Source of the DNA: Candidatus Nitrosoglobus terrae
Lineage (GTDB): Bacteria > Pseudomonadota > Gammaproteobacteria > Nitrosococcales > Nitrosococcaceae
Direction: 5' to 3'
Length of the DNA stretch: 64,000 nt
NCBI RefSeq assembly: GCF_002356115.1
Contig: NZ_AP014836.1
Coordinates: 1,675,091 to 1,739,090, forward strand
The notes under the pieces are model-generated. The model had not been told where the DNA came from, did not search any database, and saw only the letters and a list, made by a program, of their open reading frames with translations. The position numbers were made by a program, and so were the translations under genes. Numbering within the stretch: position 1 is the first letter of the stretch; every line of letters starts with the position of its first letter. Shown piece after piece: positions 50,285 to 58,003 of the stretch.

Positions 50285-51547
50285 GTGAACAGAAAAAATG
50301 AACCTCATCCATGGTTAAAAAAATTACTATTAGCGCTCATACTTATTATAAGTGATATACAAGCAGAAAACATATCGCAAGATCTAGAAGGAAGAGGGGG
50401 CTTTGCTAAGAGCGAGGGGCTTTTCGATCTCGCGCCTGGAAAAAATGTGAATGAAACCAAGTTTATGCAGTCTATCCGCACCACTATTGGGGGTTGGCTG
50501 GAAGGGGGCTACACCATTAATCCCGACGGGCCACAGAGCGGGATTAACGGACCCACCACCTTTAATAATAGGGCTGATGATCCCGTACTAGATGCCTTTT
50601 ATCTATTTTTTGAACGGCAAGTTGATGCTAAAGGAAAACACTGGGATATTGGCTGGCGGGCTGATTTTCTCTACGGCACTGATTCCATTTTTACTCAAGC
50701 CTTCGGGCTAGACAAAAACATTCTGAATAATGACACCGCCCGCTTTTATAGGACCGCTATTCCTCAGCTCTACGTAAAAACTTTTATCCCTGTAGGCAAC
50801 GGCATCACGGTTGATCTTGGGCATTTTTATACGTTAATCGGTTATGAAACCGTCACCGCGCCTGAGAATTTTTTCTACTCTCATGCTTACACCATGCAAT
50901 ATGGTGAGCCCTTTACCCATACTGGAATCATTGCTCACTATCCGGTTAACGATAACATTAGGCTCAGCGCAGGCAGCGTTATGGGCTGGAATGATTTCTC
51001 CGGTAATCCTTCGAATCAGAACTTTATAGGAAGAATAAGCTGGGCTAGCGATGATCAGCGAACCTCTCTTGATGCTGCCCTGATTACGGGGGATGTGACC
51101 AAAGTTGTCACTCCAGTAAACCCTGATCGCAACCGCACTGTATATAGCCTAGTACTTCAGCATCAGGTCACTGAACGACTAAAGTATGTCTTCCAGCATG
51201 ACTTTGGGATTGAACCCCATGCCGTTGAAAATTTCACTAAGACAGCACGCTGGTACGGCATTAATCAATACCTATTCTATCAAGTTAAAAAAACCCTAGG
51301 GGCCGGCCTGCGTTTTGAATGGTTTCGGGATGCGCAGGGCGTTCGGGTAATGGCCAATGGCCTGTCTGGGCCAGCAGATTACTTTGAGGCCACGGTCGGA
51401 TTAAGGTGGGACATCTTAAAATGGGTTACCTTTCGCCCAGAAGTACGCTATGACTGGATGAGCTCCAGCACGGGCTTTAGGGCTTTTAATGATAATACCA
51501 AAAGTAATCAGGTCATTATCGCTGCAGATTTAATTATTAAATTCTAG
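50285..51547 (+). CDS. Outer-membrane beta-barrel porin, BBP2-like family
   Basis: 420 residues from a GTG start. A signal region (LLLALILIISDIQA) is followed by alternating hydrophobic/polar strands such as GWLEGGYTINPDG, GWRADFLYG, VDLGHFYTLIGYE and AGLRFEWFRDAQGV, ending in a beta-strand with a terminal phenylalanine (IIAADLIIKF), the usual barrel insertion signal. The pattern fits the putative beta-barrel porin-2 family. Substrate unknown. Convergent with the RimK-like gene, only 4 bases apart. Confidence 0.82.
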   Translation: MNRKNEPHPWLKKLLLALILIISDIQAENISQDLEGRGGFAKSEGLFDLAPGKNVNETKFMQSIRTTIGGWLEGGYTINPDGPQSGINGPTTFNNRADDPVLDAFYLFFERQVDAKGKHWDIGWRADFLYGTDSIFTQAFGLDKNILNNDTARFYRTAIPQLYVKTFIPVGNGITVDLGHFYTLIGYETVTAPENFFYSHAYTMQYGEPFTHTGIIAHYPVNDNIRLSAGSVMGWNDFSGNPSNQNFIGRISWASDDQRTSLDAALITGDVTKVVTPVNPDRNRTVYSLVLQHQVTERLKYVFQHDFGIEPHAVENFTKTARWYGINQYLFYQVKKTLGAGLRFEWFRDAQGVRVMANGLSGPADYFEATVGLRWDILKWVTFRPEVRYDWMSSSTGFRAFNDNTKSNQVIIAADLIIKF

Positions 51548-51551
51548 CACC

Positions 51552-53030
51552 CTACCCCTTTCCTCCTCGCTGTCGCTCCAGCCTAGCCACAAAAACTTCA
51601 ATTAAACGTTGGTAAAGTTCATCTTTCAGCACCTGATCTTCAACTCCAGAATCAATATTAGGATTATCATTCACTTCAATGACCTTTACTCCGCGCGCAG
51701 TCTCTTTAAGATCGACCCCATAAAGCCCATCACCAATCAGGGTTGCCGCCCGCAAACCCACTTGTATAACTTTAGCTGGAACATCCGCTATTTTAAGGGT
51801 CTCGTACCCTCCATGCTTTGGACGCCCAGGGGCATTATGATTCAAGATCTGCCAATGTTTCCGCGACATAAAATAACGACAGGCAAAAAGCACCTCCTTA
51901 TTTAGTACCCCGATCCGCCAATCAAAAGTCGTATAGACAAACTCCTGAGCTAACAGTAAATCTGAGTCCTTAAATAACTGTTTAGTCACCTGAAGCAGCT
52001 CTACTTTATTTTCTACCTTAAATACCCCTCGAGAAAAAGAGCCATCGGGTACCTTAATCACAATCGGGTAAGCAATCTGTTGTTCTACCTCCTCCCAATT
52101 ATCTTTACGAAGAATCACCGTCTTGGGTATAGGGAGCTGATTACCTTCTAGTAGTTCCTTTAAGTAGATTTTATTGGTACAGCGAAGAATAGAATCTGGA
52201 TCATCAATCACCACCATCCCCTCACTTTCTGCTTTCTTGGCAAAACGATAGGTATAGTGGGTAATCTGGGTAGTTTCACGAATAAATAAAGCATCATATT
52301 CAGCTAGCCGAGCATAATCCTGTCGCTGAATCAATTCCACATTTACCCCATAACGCTTACCCACCCGGATAAGTTTTTTGAGCGCTTGGGGATCTGAGGG
52401 GGGAAGTTGCTCTTGAGGATTATATAATACTGCTAAGTCATAGGGATAATGGCTACGGTTTCGGGGTTTACGCCATGGACGGCTAAGATGATCTTTCAAT
52501 GCCGTGAAGAATGCCTCCATCTGATCTTTCTTCAACGTATGAAGCGATAAGGGCTTAAGAGTAGCAATGCGCCAACTGCCTTGAAGCTTAAATTCGACAC
52601 GTAATATAGGCGCGCGAAAAACGCCAAATAACTGGTAAGCTAGCTCTTTTAATTCCCCTACTTCACATTGACCAAAAAACAACGTCAGGGTAAAGGTCGT
52701 GGAATCTCCATTCTCTTGTCTACGCGTTAAAATTTTATGGAGCTTTGAATCTAAATCCTCAGTATCCAAGCTATAAATCGCTTTACGACTGAGATCTTGG
52801 ATAGTTCTCACCGTAGGTATGGATCTATGCCCCCGGGCTTCCGCTAACAATGAACAATAATAACCTAAGCTAAGATAGCGATAGCTCCGGCACAAATTAA
52901 CAATATGCAGGTGCTTTTTTTTAGAGTACACCGGCAGAGTTAGGTAATCTTTCGCAGCAACTACTGAAAACGATGGATAATCAGCTTTCCAATCAGAAAG
53001 ATTTTCCACCAATAGAATATGCTCAGCCAT
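51552..53030 (-). CDS. RimK-like ATP-grasp ligase with RLAN N-terminal domain
   Basis: 492 residues. The N-terminal half (about 1-200) fits the RLAN domain that precedes one branch of RimK-like ligases: VNLCRSYRYLSLGYYCSLLA, GHRSIPTVRTIQDL. The C-terminal half is an ATP-grasp fold: NKIYLKELLEGNQLPIPKT, ATP-binding lysine in YPIVIKVPDGSFSRGVF, LLLAQEFVYTTFDWRIGVL, and metal ligands in YGVDLKE and KVIEVNDNPNID. Such enzymes join an amino acid to a carboxylate through an acyl-phosphate. It is 7 bases downstream of the GNAT/C39 gene. From family knowledge this pair is predicted to make or modify a peptide; the product is unknown. Not RimK itself, which lacks the N-terminal domain. Confidence 0.88.
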   Translation of the reverse strand: MAEHILLVENLSDWKADYPSFSVVAAKDYLTLPVYSKKKHLHIVNLCRSYRYLSLGYYCSLLAEARGHRSIPTVRTIQDLSRKAIYSLDTEDLDSKLHKILTRRQENGDSTTFTLTLFFGQCEVGELKELAYQLFGVFRAPILRVEFKLQGSWRIATLKPLSLHTLKKDQMEAFFTALKDHLSRPWRKPRNRSHYPYDLAVLYNPQEQLPPSDPQALKKLIRVGKRYGVNVELIQRQDYARLAEYDALFIRETTQITHYTYRFAKKAESEGMVVIDDPDSILRCTNKIYLKELLEGNQLPIPKTVILRKDNWEEVEQQIAYPIVIKVPDGSFSRGVFKVENKVELLQVTKQLFKDSDLLLAQEFVYTTFDWRIGVLNKEVLFACRYFMSRKHWQILNHNAPGRPKHGGYETLKIADVPAKVIQVGLRAATLIGDGLYGVDLKETARGVKVIEVNDNPNIDSGVEDQVLKDELYQRLIEVFVARLERQRGGKG

Positions 53031-53037
53031 ATTTAAG

Positions 53038-54135
53038 CTACCCTTCTCGACGGGAGATCATCAATACGGCAGCCAGCCCAGCACGGCCATAGCGCGCCAT
53101 ACATCCAAACTCCCAGTGCAAAATGGGCATACTGATGGAATCGGTAGGGGTTTCTTCATTCTCATAATCCACATAAGGATCATGAACATAAACAAAATGA
53201 TCATCAAAACCAACTACTACTACCCAATGAGGAAATTTTTCCCCATAAATACGATAAGAGCTGATAAATATTACGGGAATACTACCTTTCTCAAATTTTT
53301 CTCGAATTTCAGGCACTGTTAAACTTCCTTGAATAATAGGAATATCTAAGGAATGAATCTCTTCAATCATATCTTCTTGTACTAAGCGCACCACTTCTTT
53401 TTTCTCCGCACTACGGACGCTGTTTAACAGGAATGTCTCTTCTGCTTTAACGTAGATTTCCACACCAAATCCCCGATGCCATGCTGATAAGGCAAGCCCA
53501 TAAGGACCACAGCCTCCATGACCAGAAGTCATAAATATAGTTGTCGCCTCGCGCCAAATACGAAGCTCAAGCTTGCGATTTAAGGTTAATTCTGGATGTA
53601 GCGCTTTCATTGCCATCATCAATGCTGATGGCCCACAAGTGAAATCTAAAGTTTGCTCATAAAAAGGAACCCGAAGAAGGTCTAGATTCAAATCTGGGGT
53701 TAATGTCTTTTCTAGCCGCAGTGCATCCATATGATCTTCATAATAGCTCGCAAATTCCCCAAATTTCTTATAGCCTAGGCGGTTAAACAAACTCAGCGAA
53801 GCCCTATTGTCCTTTCGTATCTCTAAACGTAAGCAGGCTGCACCTCGCTCCCGTGCTGCTACTTCAGCCGCTTTCACCAATACCTCACCCACCCCCTGTT
53901 TGCGAGCTAAGGAACCTACCGCAATGGAATATAAACGAGCCATTGCCGTGCCTCGGCTAAATAGCAACAATACATAACCGCGCACTGTATGATCATCTTC
54001 TTCTACTAAAATTGACCCATTAGCCCTAGTAAGCATATAGCGAAAATTACGACGAGAAAGACGATCAGAGTGAAAACAGCTGGCTTCTAGATCAACCAAA
54101 GCATCTAAATCAGAAATTGTAGCGAGGCGAACCAT
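53038..54135 (-). CDS. GNAT acetyltransferase fused to a C39/papain-like peptidase
   Basis: 365 residues in two domains. Residues 1-145 are a RimI-like GNAT domain with the acetyl-CoA loop RKQGVGEVLVKAAEVAARER and SLFNRLGYKKFGEF. Residues 155-365 are a C39-like cysteine peptidase with Q161 (VPFYEQT), C167 (DFTCGPSALMMAM), H303 (KFPHWVVVVGFDD) and D319 (YVHDPYVDY), the full Gln-Cys-His-Asp set. No transporter domain and no signal peptide, so it is cytoplasmic. Together with the ATP-grasp gene 7 bases downstream it forms a conserved two-gene module. The peptidase may trim or transfer a peptide and the GNAT domain may cap an amine; both are inference. Confidence 0.88.
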   Translation of the reverse strand: MVRLATISDLDALVDLEASCFHSDRLSRRNFRYMLTRANGSILVEEDDHTVRGYVLLLFSRGTAMARLYSIAVGSLARKQGVGEVLVKAAEVAARERGAACLRLEIRKDNRASLSLFNRLGYKKFGEFASYYEDHMDALRLEKTLTPDLNLDLLRVPFYEQTLDFTCGPSALMMAMKALHPELTLNRKLELRIWREATTIFMTSGHGGCGPYGLALSAWHRGFGVEIYVKAEETFLLNSVRSAEKKEVVRLVQEDMIEEIHSLDIPIIQGSLTVPEIREKFEKGSIPVIFISSYRIYGEKFPHWVVVVGFDDHFVYVHDPYVDYENEETPTDSISMPILHWEFGCMARYGRAGLAAVLMISRREG

Positions 54136-54314
54136 AAATAAACGACTATATAAATTATTACAGAAACTTTAAATATTCTGGAACAAACAGGCTTTAACCT
54201 AAAAATCAAGCTAGGTAGAATACAATAAATTGATTAGTATCAATTTAAAATACTTTCTTATTTATCCTATTCCTAATTTATAGCGATGGATCAACGCTGG
54301 AAAAGGTAACTATC

Positions 54315-55472
54315 ATGCCTCATTCTGCTCCCCCCTTAATGGAAATGATTACTCAGCTGATTGCTACCCCTTCAATAAGTAGCGTCAATCAAACTTGGGA
54401 TCAAAGTAATCTTCCAATCATCGAGTTACTTGATTCTTGGCTATCTGCGCTAGGATTTAGCATCGAAATTCAGCCCATCCCCGATCAAAAAACTGACAAA
54501 GCCAACCTGATTGCCACTTTAGGCCAAGGATCAGAAGGACTCATATTAGCAGGTCATACCGATACAGTGCCTTTTGATCAAGGGCAATGGAGGCAAGATC
54601 CTTTCCAGCTGACGGAGCGAGAAGGAAAGCTTTATGGTTTAGGGACAGCCGATATGAAAGCCTTTCTTGTCCTAGCTATTGAAGCAGCCCGATCATTTAA
54701 TCCTTCTACTTTAAAACACCCCCTCATCCTACTGGCCACGGCTGACGAGGAAAGTACCACCTGCGGTGCTCGCTCTTTGGTCAATGCGGGTCGATATCTT
54801 GGGCGCCACGCTCTTATTGGAGAACCAACTGGATTACGTCCCATACGCCAACATAAAGGGGTATTCATTGAGGGTATTCAGCTCCGTGGCCACTCGGGGC
54901 ACTCTAGCAATCCTGCCCTTGGCAATAATGCCCTTGAAGGTATGCACGCCGTGATAAGTGAGTTACTTGCTTTTCGCGCTGATCTGGAATCTCGCTACCA
55001 TAACCCAGTATTTGATGTACCCTCGCCTACCCTTAATCTAGGGCATATCCACGGCGGGGATAATCCTAATCGTATCTGCGCTGAATGTGAACTGCATTTT
55101 GATTTGCGCCCACTGCCAGGAATGGACATTCAGGAGCTTCGCCAAATGCTACACTCCCGAGTGACCCAAGTTGCTGTAAGCCGTGGCTTAACTTGTAAGA
55201 CCATGATTTTAGCAGAAGGGATTCCTCCTTTTGAGACTCCCTCAACTGCAGCTATTATTGAGGCCACAGAACGCCTGACTGGATATCCAGCTGGCACGGC
55301 AGCCTTTGGCACTGAAGGCCCCTTTCTCAATCAGCTAGGCATGGAAACCGTTATCCTAGGACCTGGTGATATCGCTCAAGCCCACCAACCTAATGAATAC
55401 CTCTCTTTAGACCGAATTAAGCCAACGATAGATTTATTACAACGACTGATCCAGCAGTTTTGCTGTCATTAA
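54315..55472 (+). CDS. argE: Acetylornithine deacetylase (M20 peptidase family)
   Basis: Zinc hydrolase of 385 residues: LAGHTDTVPFDQGQW with the metal-site HTD, GLGTADMKAFLVL, ADEESTTCGARSLV with the catalytic glutamates, and C-terminal FGTEGPFLNQLGMETVILGPG. Followed 26 bases later by argA, which fixes its role in arginine synthesis (acetylornithine to ornithine). Divergent from the GNAT-C39/ATP-grasp pair across 179 bases; M20 peptidases are reported neighbours of that module, so a second role cannot be excluded. Confidence 0.92.
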   Translation: MPHSAPPLMEMITQLIATPSISSVNQTWDQSNLPIIELLDSWLSALGFSIEIQPIPDQKTDKANLIATLGQGSEGLILAGHTDTVPFDQGQWRQDPFQLTEREGKLYGLGTADMKAFLVLAIEAARSFNPSTLKHPLILLATADEESTTCGARSLVNAGRYLGRHALIGEPTGLRPIRQHKGVFIEGIQLRGHSGHSSNPALGNNALEGMHAVISELLAFRADLESRYHNPVFDVPSPTLNLGHIHGGDNPNRICAECELHFDLRPLPGMDIQELRQMLHSRVTQVAVSRGLTCKTMILAEGIPPFETPSTAAIIEATERLTGYPAGTAAFGTEGPFLNQLGMETVILGPGDIAQAHQPNEYLSLDRIKPTIDLLQRLIQQFCCH

Positions 55473-55498: not shown

Positions 55499-56809
55499 TT
55501 GAGTCAGGATTACCTCCTACCTGAAGTTCACTGGCTTAGAAACGCCGCTTCCTATATTCACGCTCATCGGGGTCGAACATTCGTCATTGCTTTTGCTGGG
55601 GATACCGTACGGGAGCCTCATTTCCCTCACCTAATTCATGATATCACCCTACTAAGTAGTTTAGGTATTCAGTTGGTACTCGTCCATGGCGCTCGCCCCC
55701 AGATTGAAGCGGCACTTGCCCAACGAAACCTTAACTTACGCTATATCAATGGCCTACGAGTCACGGACGATAGCGTCCTCCCTCACATTAAAGAAGCGGT
55801 GGGTGCAGTACGAATTGAGATTGAAGCGCTATTATCCATGGGCTTACCTAACTCCCCTATGGCGGGAGCCAAAGTTCGAGTAGTCTCAGGCAATTTTATT
55901 ACCGCGCGTCCCCTAGGAGTGAGAGAAGGGGTAGACTATTGCCATACTGGAGAGGTACGTAAAATAGATGCCCAAGCTATCCGCCAATGCCTTAATCATG
56001 GGGCTATTATTCTCCTCTCCCCACTGGGTTATTCACCTACTGGAGAAGTTTTTAACCTCAGTGCTGATGAAGTCGCTACCGCCTCAGCTATTGCCCTTAA
56101 GGCCGATAAGCTTATCTTTATGAGTGCGGAACTCTGGGCAGCAGAGCTATTGCCTAGAGAACTTACGCCCACTGGGGCAGCGCAGATTCTTCAGTCATCG
56201 CCGCAGCTACCGGGTGAACTAGCTTACTATCTTCAAAATGCAGTACGCGCCTGCCGGGCTAAAGTTCAGCGGGTACACATTATTCATCAGCACCTAGATG
56301 GCGCTTTGTTGATGGAATTATTTAAACGGGATGGGATTGGCACACTGGTAACGGCTACCGCTTTTGAGGATACCCGCAAAGCCACGATTGAAGATATCGG
56401 GGGGATTCTGGAACTTATTGCACCCTTAGAGGAAAAGAGCTTACTGGTACGACGACCCCGAGAGCGGTTAGAGATGGAAATCCATTGTTTTACCATCATG
56501 GAGCGGGATGGAGCAATCATTGCCTGTGCTGCATTATACCCTTTCTCAGCGGAAAAAATTGGTGAACTGGCCTGCTTAGTAGTACACCCGGATTACCGTC
56601 AATCCGGACGGGCAACGGCTTTGCTGGCTACTATCGAAAAAGCCGCCATGGAGCAAGGACTTCACCATCTATGCGTCCTGACCACCCAAACTGCTCATTG
56701 GTTTCAGGAACGGGGGTTTACTCCAGCAAACTTAGAGGTGTTACCGGAAAACAAACGAAGACTTTACAACTATCAACGTAATAGCAAAGTGCTGGTGAAA
56801 TATTTATAA
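55499..56809 (+). CDS. argA: N-acetylglutamate synthase
   Basis: First step of arginine synthesis. 436 residues: an amino-acid-kinase-like domain (about 20-290) with LVHGARPQIEAAL and VVSGNFITARPLGV, then a GNAT catalytic domain (about 295-436) with RRPRERLEMEIHCFTIMERD, CLVVHPDYRQSGRATALL and HWFQERGFTPANL. Collinear with E. coli ArgA. The start is a TTG at 55499; no ATG is available nearby. In this family arginine inhibits the enzyme. Confidence 0.95.
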   Translation: MSQDYLLPEVHWLRNAASYIHAHRGRTFVIAFAGDTVREPHFPHLIHDITLLSSLGIQLVLVHGARPQIEAALAQRNLNLRYINGLRVTDDSVLPHIKEAVGAVRIEIEALLSMGLPNSPMAGAKVRVVSGNFITARPLGVREGVDYCHTGEVRKIDAQAIRQCLNHGAIILLSPLGYSPTGEVFNLSADEVATASAIALKADKLIFMSAELWAAELLPRELTPTGAAQILQSSPQLPGELAYYLQNAVRACRAKVQRVHIIHQHLDGALLMELFKRDGIGTLVTATAFEDTRKATIEDIGGILELIAPLEEKSLLVRRPRERLEMEIHCFTIMERDGAIIACAALYPFSAEKIGELACLVVHPDYRQSGRATALLATIEKAAMEQGLHHLCVLTTQTAHWFQERGFTPANLEVLPENKRRLYNYQRNSKVLVKYL

Positions 56810-57106: not shown

Positions 57107-58003
57107 TTGAAAAAAAATCAACAGAGCGCCCCTACTGAGCGGGAACTTACGGAGGCAATGACGGCAGTTGGCGGTACAGTTATTTCTGTTGAAGGAAATA
57201 ATGCATGTAGGCGCGTAGACTACACTGGAACTGTAAACCATACTAGGTTTGAAAATAAACTAATTGAGATTGCTAATGGCAACCGAAACAGTTGGAATTT
57301 TATATGGGCTGACGCAATAACAACAGGATTAGCTTCTTTAGCAGAACTATCTAACCCCGACTACTACCAATATGAGCAAGGTCTAAAAATATTATTGGCA
57401 GCAACCGAAAAAGTAGTAACTATTAAGATTGCTAGAGAGGATAGGAGGACTCTGAAGGACAACAATTACAGTATTTGTTTTGCAAAGCGCGTTGGAAATA
57501 ATGATTACAATGTTGTGTGGCAATCCTCTGATGGATATCTAGAAACTAATACCTTTAGGTGGACACCTCAATATCAATTGTTTGGTACAAATACCTTCAC
57601 ATCAGGTCTAATTGTAGATGTAGCAACTAACAGAGTAAATATTAGCTTAGGGGAAACTTCTATCTTAGACAAGTACGGTGATCTTTTACCTTCTACAACA
57701 AGAGGGCCTTCTACAGCAATCACGATGGACAATCAATACGGTCTAATTCACCCCGGAATAAATCAGCTTGCAACTAATATTGATGGTAGCCAGAGTAATA
57801 CACCAATTTATGTTGCGGCGAATGCGGTTCTTAAAGGAACAATTGAGCTAACGCCTATTGAAAAGATACTCGTCTGGTTTGAGCAAAACGTTAAAACCGG
57901 CACCATGTTTAGTACAGCAAGAACCAATTCAATAGAAATTGATCTAACTACAGAGAATACAGCCACATGGTTATTTTCTAGCAATAAATGGTCGAAGGTA
58001 TAG
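57107..58003 (+). CDS. Unknown protein, possibly with a frameshifted start
   Basis: 298 residues of a type I cannot assign. Features: NDYNVVWQSSDGYLETNTF, RWTPQYQLFGTNTFTSGLIV, NQYGLIHPGINQLATNIDGS and a C-terminal NSIEIDLTTENTATWLF. It is rich in Asn and Thr, has few cysteines, no signal peptide and no membrane segment. The frame begins at TTG 57107 with no spaced ribosome binding site. An upstream ATG (57085) is one base out of frame; deleting one A from the eight-A run at 57110-57117 would join them. In style it resembles the broken gene at 33.5-34.5 kb. Confidence 0.6.
   Translation: MKKNQQSAPTERELTEAMTAVGGTVISVEGNNACRRVDYTGTVNHTRFENKLIEIANGNRNSWNFIWADAITTGLASLAELSNPDYYQYEQGLKILLAATEKVVTIKIAREDRRTLKDNNYSICFAKRVGNNDYNVVWQSSDGYLETNTFRWTPQYQLFGTNTFTSGLIVDVATNRVNISLGETSILDKYGDLLPSTTRGPSTAITMDNQYGLIHPGINQLATNIDGSQSNTPIYVAANAVLKGTIELTPIEKILVWFEQNVKTGTMFSTARTNSIEIDLTTENTATWLFSSNKWSKV

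Follow-up and report, generated by a model that had tools for sequence, protein, structure and literature searches.

Organization of the locus

The window, which is the whole stretch of 64,000 nucleotides of Candidatus Nitrosoglobus terrae DNA analysed here, carries two adjacent genes on its minus strand. The first codes for a GNAT-C39 (DUF3335) fusion protein of 365 residues (53038-54135; PF00583 and PF11814) and the second, after a spacing of 7 nt, codes for an RLAN-type RimK-like ATP-grasp ligase of 492 residues (51552-53030; PF14401 and PF08443). An earlier sequence-only reading of this DNA had the coordinates, strand, spacing and intact reading frames of both genes right, and the genome has one copy of the module. 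On the plus strand, the divergent argE gene, which codes for an acetylornithine deacetylase of the M20 family (54315-55472; NF003474, 542.8 bits for a cut-off of 460), is separated from the module by an intergenic region of 179 bp (54136-54314) and is followed by its neighbour argA, the gene of N-acetylglutamate synthase (55499-56809; TIGR01890, 573.8 bits). Each strand of the 179-bp region has a sigma-70-like site with 9 of 12 matches, which is chance level, and the scan for promoters and terminators found nothing above chance. Downstream of argA there is an ORF of 298 aa (57107-58003) with no Pfam or NCBIfam match. At the other side of the module, a BBP2/OmpL-like porin gene (50285-51547) is convergent with the ligase gene and its end lies 4 bases away.

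The RLAN ligase

The ligase is built by two domains that score over the cut-offs of their models: the RLAN N-terminal domain at residues 26-176 (52503-52955, minus strand; PF14401, 4.9e-52, 176 bits) and the RimK ATP-grasp catalytic domain at residues 286-461 (51648-52175, minus strand; PF08443, 1.5e-9, 38.2 bits). The metal ligands are D440 (51711-51713), E452 (51675-51677) and N454 (51669-51671), all on the minus strand and all invariant across 71 homologues, in agreement with the RLAN-type ligase with intact metal ligands that had been read from the sequence. The RLAN domain has its own invariant residues in the same 71 proteins (N45, L46, Y58, S60, G120 and P141) and is possibly a substrate-recognition domain.

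The AlphaFold model of the ligase is confident (pLDDT 89.8), and the nearest structures to its residues 197-486 are RimK, LysX and ArgX (Z 26.8-27.8, rmsd 2.2-2.6, ~265 residues), with a tie between the Z-scores of RimK and of LysX/ArgX, so that the fold cannot tell a protein target from a carrier-bound amino acid. The ligase scores under the equivalog cut-offs of RimK S6 ligases (TIGR00768, 88.3 versus 143.4 bits; PRK10446, 35.5 versus 331 bits) and of LysX (84 versus 275.6 bits).

The GNAT domain of the fusion protein

PF00583 and PF11814 match a single chain that also has the Q-C-H-D residues, as expected of a GNAT-DUF3335 fusion, and the AlphaFold model of this protein is confident (pLDDT 92.7, pTM 0.88). 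The RimI/Ard1-like N-acetyltransferase domain comprises residues 1-146 (53698-54135, minus strand; PF00583, 8.8e-14). Its nearest family by sequence is rimI (TIGR01575, 2e-17), its best structure matches are RimI/Ard1 (Naa10; Z ~22.9, rmsd 1.4-1.5, ~142 residues), and its alignments retain the tyrosine pair common to RimI, Naa30 and Ard1. RimI and Ard1 (Naa10), which are closest to this domain in sequence and structure, stand alone, and the GNAT of the module is fused to a cysteine peptidase. In the homologue alignment almost every sequence keeps E105 (53821-53823, minus strand), Y131, Y132 and D134, and GNAT-only forms mostly keep them too. The general acid of GNAT enzymes is usually a Tyr at the position corresponding to 117 (window 53785-53787), which is a Phe in 21 of 58 homologues, the window protein included.

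The domain misses the RimI equivalog cut-off (TIGR01575, 63.6 versus 86.4 bits). Its similarity to N-acetylglutaminylglutamine synthetase is weak (TIGR03103, 2.8e-7) and far below the score required of that family (29.4 versus 569 bits). Since they score under these curated cut-offs, the two proteins are not filed under RimI, RimK, LysX or NAGGN synthetase. The genome encodes a separate canonical RimI (123.9 bits) and a RimK-family protein, and a replacement of RimI or RimK by the module is thereby ruled out.

The papain-like DUF3335 domain

The second domain of the fusion comprises residues 156-360 (53056-53670, minus strand; PF11814, 8.8e-83). The sequence-only reading described a GNAT fused to a cysteine peptidase with all four catalytic residues, and the homologues bear this out: Q161 (53653-53655), C167 (53635-53637) and H303 (53227-53229) are conserved in 58 of 58 and D319 (53179-53181; all minus strand) in 57 of 58. 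In the modelled fold C167 opens the helix 167-179, H303 is on the strand 302-310 and D319 comes after the strand 314-318, a predicted placement of the three residues as in papain-like enzymes. Both models are confident, and the evidence supports intact active sites in the two proteins. The structure-match lists for the whole fusion model are filled by the GNAT domain. A GNAT fusion of DUF3335 has been cited, and the family is related to PF09778 (PMC10318531).

A profile match to the solved BtrH N-terminal-domain proteins (E 0.0018) raises the alternative that the domain is mainly an acyl transferase, as in BtrH, and not a protease. This would concern one step and is compatible with the end-modification reading presented below, but we find it doubtful: the match is weak and 45 residues long, the protease constellation Q-C-H-D is intact, and the standalone relatives match C39 proteases better.

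Linkage and types of the module

RLAN is present in 63 of 274 gammaproteobacterial genomes, about a fifth, and a strong DUF3335 match in 44, of which 43 also carry RLAN (Fisher p = 1.6e-33, which, like the other Fisher tests here, disregards shared ancestry and overstates independence). As the p-values have this bias, the better argument is that the linkage recurs in separate families and beyond a single class; RLAN occurs also in other proteobacterial classes, and its carriers include culturable Pseudomonas and Azospirillum. Within the 43 pairs, 40 lie within ~4 kb on the same contig and the other three (G060, G199 and G208) are split across draft contigs. In 44 operonic pairs the gap ranges from -8 to +67 bases, apart from a single outlier of 194, and roughly half of the pairs overlap or abut. 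Co-occurrence and adjacency thus support the claim of a conserved module of ligase, acetyltransferase and peptidase, and the independent distribution of the two genes that would have spoken against it is not what the genomes have. The claim that RLAN is nearly always found with the GNAT-papain fusion is right about the linkage and too strong in its extent, as the fusion is found at only 37 of 58 RLAN loci.

The comparison of neighbourhoods used 140 loci (80 of them of named genomes), to which a phylum-wide draw added another 20, with gene calls made by script, in which some genes are missed or misplaced. The loci fall into several types. In type A1, to which the window belongs, GNAT-C39 is followed by the ligase in one operon; in A2 (Pseudomonas) the two genes are divergent; A3 has DUF2817 in addition; and A4 (Xanthomonadales, some Pseudomonas and others) has a GNAT without C39. 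Type B has a separate C39-like protein, the ligase, GCS2 and an N-formylglutamate-amidohydrolase-like (FGase) gene, and no GNAT (L111-L114, L116, L117, L121, L123, L125 and L129 are such loci). The 58 gammaproteobacterial RLAN loci comprise 31 of type A1, 2 of A2, 4 of A3, 6 of A4, 13 of B and 2 that are solo or at a contig edge.

In the ligase tree, type B falls into a single clade (SH-aLRT 100), and 8 changes are required to account for where C39 is present. DUF3335 was not found genome-wide in five A4 genomes (G040, G171, G177, G260 and G272). With repeated origins of GNAT-only versions and several losses of C39, it is the GNAT that stays constant in type A, and the peptidase is dispensable. 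Type B keeps the peptidase and has GCS2 and the N-formylglutamate-amidohydrolase-like enzyme in place of the GNAT, a swap that points to substrates of amino-acid size. The fused and the separate forms of C39 are homologous, with an hhalign probability of 96.2 and an E of 2.4e-9. GCS2, named earlier as a partner to look for, was indeed found, but in this separate clade and without GNAT.

Neither protein matches a known defence model in PADLOC, and an anti-phage defence system was discarded. Out to 2.5 kb from the module at 135 loci, the ORFs of 20-110 aa include no short-ORF family common across lineages; the largest clusters are limited to Pseudomonas or to Xanthomonadales GNAT-only loci and resemble readings of neighbouring genes. 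The conserved small peptide gene anticipated as a neighbour was not found in this search, and a ribosomally made, graspetide-like modified peptide with a nearby precursor was rejected, as no conserved precursor gene lies next to the ligase. A precursor may be encoded far from the module. Among other neighbours, a Na/Ca-exchanger-like gene is found near RLAN in three families (L200, L202, L208 and L209), with one other, distant match in the first 140 loci, and in many Pseudomonas a CorA-like gene follows RLAN.

The argE and argA neighbourhood

The argE gene is divergently adjacent to the module in 11 of 31 type-A1 loci, which belong to 10 families, mostly with a gap below 190 bases, and in some loci argA lies behind argE as it does in the window. 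The M20 genes of the window and of three other loci were classified, and all four are ArgE by the curated equivalog score. ArgE is a conserved divergent neighbour, a candidate rather than an established member of the module, and it probably explains the M20 peptidase that the sequence-only reading named as a frequent partner; a dedicated M20 peptidase partner was rejected on these four loci.

The presence of argE next door in 10 families, together with argA and a ligase that resembles ArgX/LysX, could suggest a role in arginine metabolism, with ornithine made on a carrier protein. LysX and ArgX attach an amino acid to LysW at its terminal glutamate (PMC4490483). They share the ligase fold (Z ~27) and act on this carrier, whereas no LysW-like carrier gene is among the conserved neighbours of the module in the loci compared. 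With the LysX score under its cut-off, a LysW-type carrier pathway was rejected. A link to arginine synthesis is very improbable, since ordinary argA and argE genes are present and 20 of 31 type-A1 loci, as well as the other types, are without argE next door.

DUF2817 and small N-acyl compounds

DUF2817 (PF10994), which is a probable zinc hydrolase judging by its conserved His and Glu residues, is found between or beside the module genes in 10 of 140 loci and in two loci of family f192, outside the class of the window (L046, L068, L103, L105-L107, L132, L137, L148, L166, L200 and L201). N-acyl amino acids or small amides are the known or presumed substrates of the families to which DUF2817, ArgE and the clade B enzymes GCS2 and FGase belong, and these partners speak for small N-acyl compounds. 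Together with the missing precursor gene and the weak match of the GNAT to TIGR03103, they make it possible, with less probability than end modification, that the module is a small-metabolite pathway. In such a pathway the ligase would join free amino acids to a short peptide, the GNAT would acetylate its N-end and hydrolases would recycle it, following a logic like that of the osmolyte N-acetylglutaminylglutamine amide (NAGGN). The NAGGN genes belong to other families than those of the module, among them an asparagine synthetase-like protein and an M42 peptidase. The module is like the NAGGN genes in its logic of GNAT, ATP-grasp and peptidase, and the similarity between the GNATs is only weak. 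Against this pathway, the GNAT is far closer to RimI/Ard1 than to TIGR03103 and most type-A loci are without a conserved third enzyme.

DUF155 as a recurrent neighbour

DUF155 (PF02582, RMND1/Sif2/Mrx10) scores over the cut-off in 36 of 274 genomes, and 20 of these have RLAN where ~8 are expected (Fisher 4.8e-6, with the same disregard of shared ancestry). It lies beside the module, on the strand of one of the module genes, in L036 (Sedimenticola), L107 (HdN1), L148, L164, L166, L016 and L200, is paired with DUF2817 on the opposite strand in L201, and is convergent behind type B in L111 and L129. DUF155 recurs beside the RLAN module in more than one class of proteobacteria and is often operonic with it, in several lineages that include an alphaproteobacterium-like family outside the class of the window. 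As 20 DUF155 loci away from RLAN share almost no neighbours, RLAN is the sole recurrent link of DUF155 seen. The literature search found no paper linking DUF155 to ATP-grasp ligases, which is not proof of novelty; the sif2 gene of P. fluorescens (PMC3646685) matches by name only, being a predicted glutamine synthetase and unrelated.

These neighbours, and the likeness of the ligase to RimK and of the GNAT to RimI, are consistent with a translation-linked version of end modification, in which the module would act on the ends of a ribosomal or translation-associated protein, with DUF155 as a partner where present. RimI acts on bS18 and RimK on bS6. We regard this version as unlikely: the window genome is without DUF155 and has its own canonical RimI and RimK-family protein, and fold likeness does not give the target. 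A four-gene form with ligase, GNAT-C39, the zinc-hydrolase-like DUF2817 and DUF155/RMND1 is found in L166 and L200/L201. A wider system of translation-linked end modification, with RLAN/GNAT-C39 at its core, these four genes as its fuller form and a reduced form in the window, is a speculative proposal of similarly low probability.

Relation to known systems

The association of RLAN ATP-grasp and GNAT-papain genes was reportedly predicted by Iyer, Abhiman, Burroughs and Aravind in 2009. The pair in the window has the same domain families and linkage (PF14401, PF11814) and is itself no different, so it adds a member to a kind already predicted. The literature search found no experiment on this RLAN/GNAT-papain pair, and the earlier statement that it has no defined product stands.

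The tested systems that come nearest are RimABK and RloABC. RimK lengthens bS6 at its C-end, and RimK with RimB is a precedent for a ligase-protease pair (PMC11957791). RimABK of Pseudomonas fluorescens has, like the module, a RimK-type ligase and an antagonistic protease for C-end extension (PMC11957791, PMC4741518), but its target is known to be bS6, its protease is different and it has no GNAT. RloABC of Pseudomonas aeruginosa (PMC12239564) also has an ATP-grasp protein operonic with a protease; in this case the protease is secreted and retropepsin-like, it is accompanied by a membrane transglutaminase-like protein, and there is no GNAT or C39.

Predicted function

We propose, with a probability of about one half, that the module is a self-contained operon of two genes that acts on a peptide or protein encoded outside the locus and modifies its ends. 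Domains, catalytic residues, linkage, confident folds, the constancy of the GNAT in the main clade and the lack of a conserved precursor gene are established here; from the domains, catalytic residues, linkage and folds we infer the reactions, their order and the substrate. By analogy with the relatives of each domain, the module most likely would cap the N-end and extend the C-end, and its cysteine enzyme would trim or transfer. The RLAN ligase would use ATP to form an acyl phosphate and would join an amino acid to a carboxylate, presumably a terminal one as for RimK, LysX and ArgX. The RimI/Ard1-like GNAT would acetylate the free alpha-amino end, and the papain-like domain may remove or transfer residues, which would edit or undo the ligation in the manner of the RimB protease towards RimK. 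The peptide-end chemistry of the sequence-only reading fits these nearest relatives, RimK/LysX for the ligase and RimI/Ard1 for the GNAT.

The substrate may be a protein, by a RimK-like logic, or a short peptide metabolite; DUF155 and the likeness to RimI and RimK favour a translation-associated protein. Several points argue against a peptide or protein end as substrate: small-molecule pathways also use GNAT and ATP-grasp folds, Phe117 takes the place of the usual general-acid Tyr in the 21 homologues mentioned above, and the swap of the GNAT in clade B points to smaller substrates. The confidences given to these explanations overlap and do not sum to one, since the translation-linked version is a special case of end modification and the acyl transferase is one step of it.

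Modification of protein or peptide ends by the module, if it takes place, would be a layer of modification that has gone unrecognised. The link to DUF155 is the most interesting lead. RMND1, the human protein of the DUF155 family, is required for mitochondrial translation, and the recurrent DUF155 neighbour offers a lead from genomes to the bacterial members of the RMND1 family. If the four-gene proposal is true, bacterial relatives of RMND1 would work with a RimI/RimK-like set of modifying enzymes.
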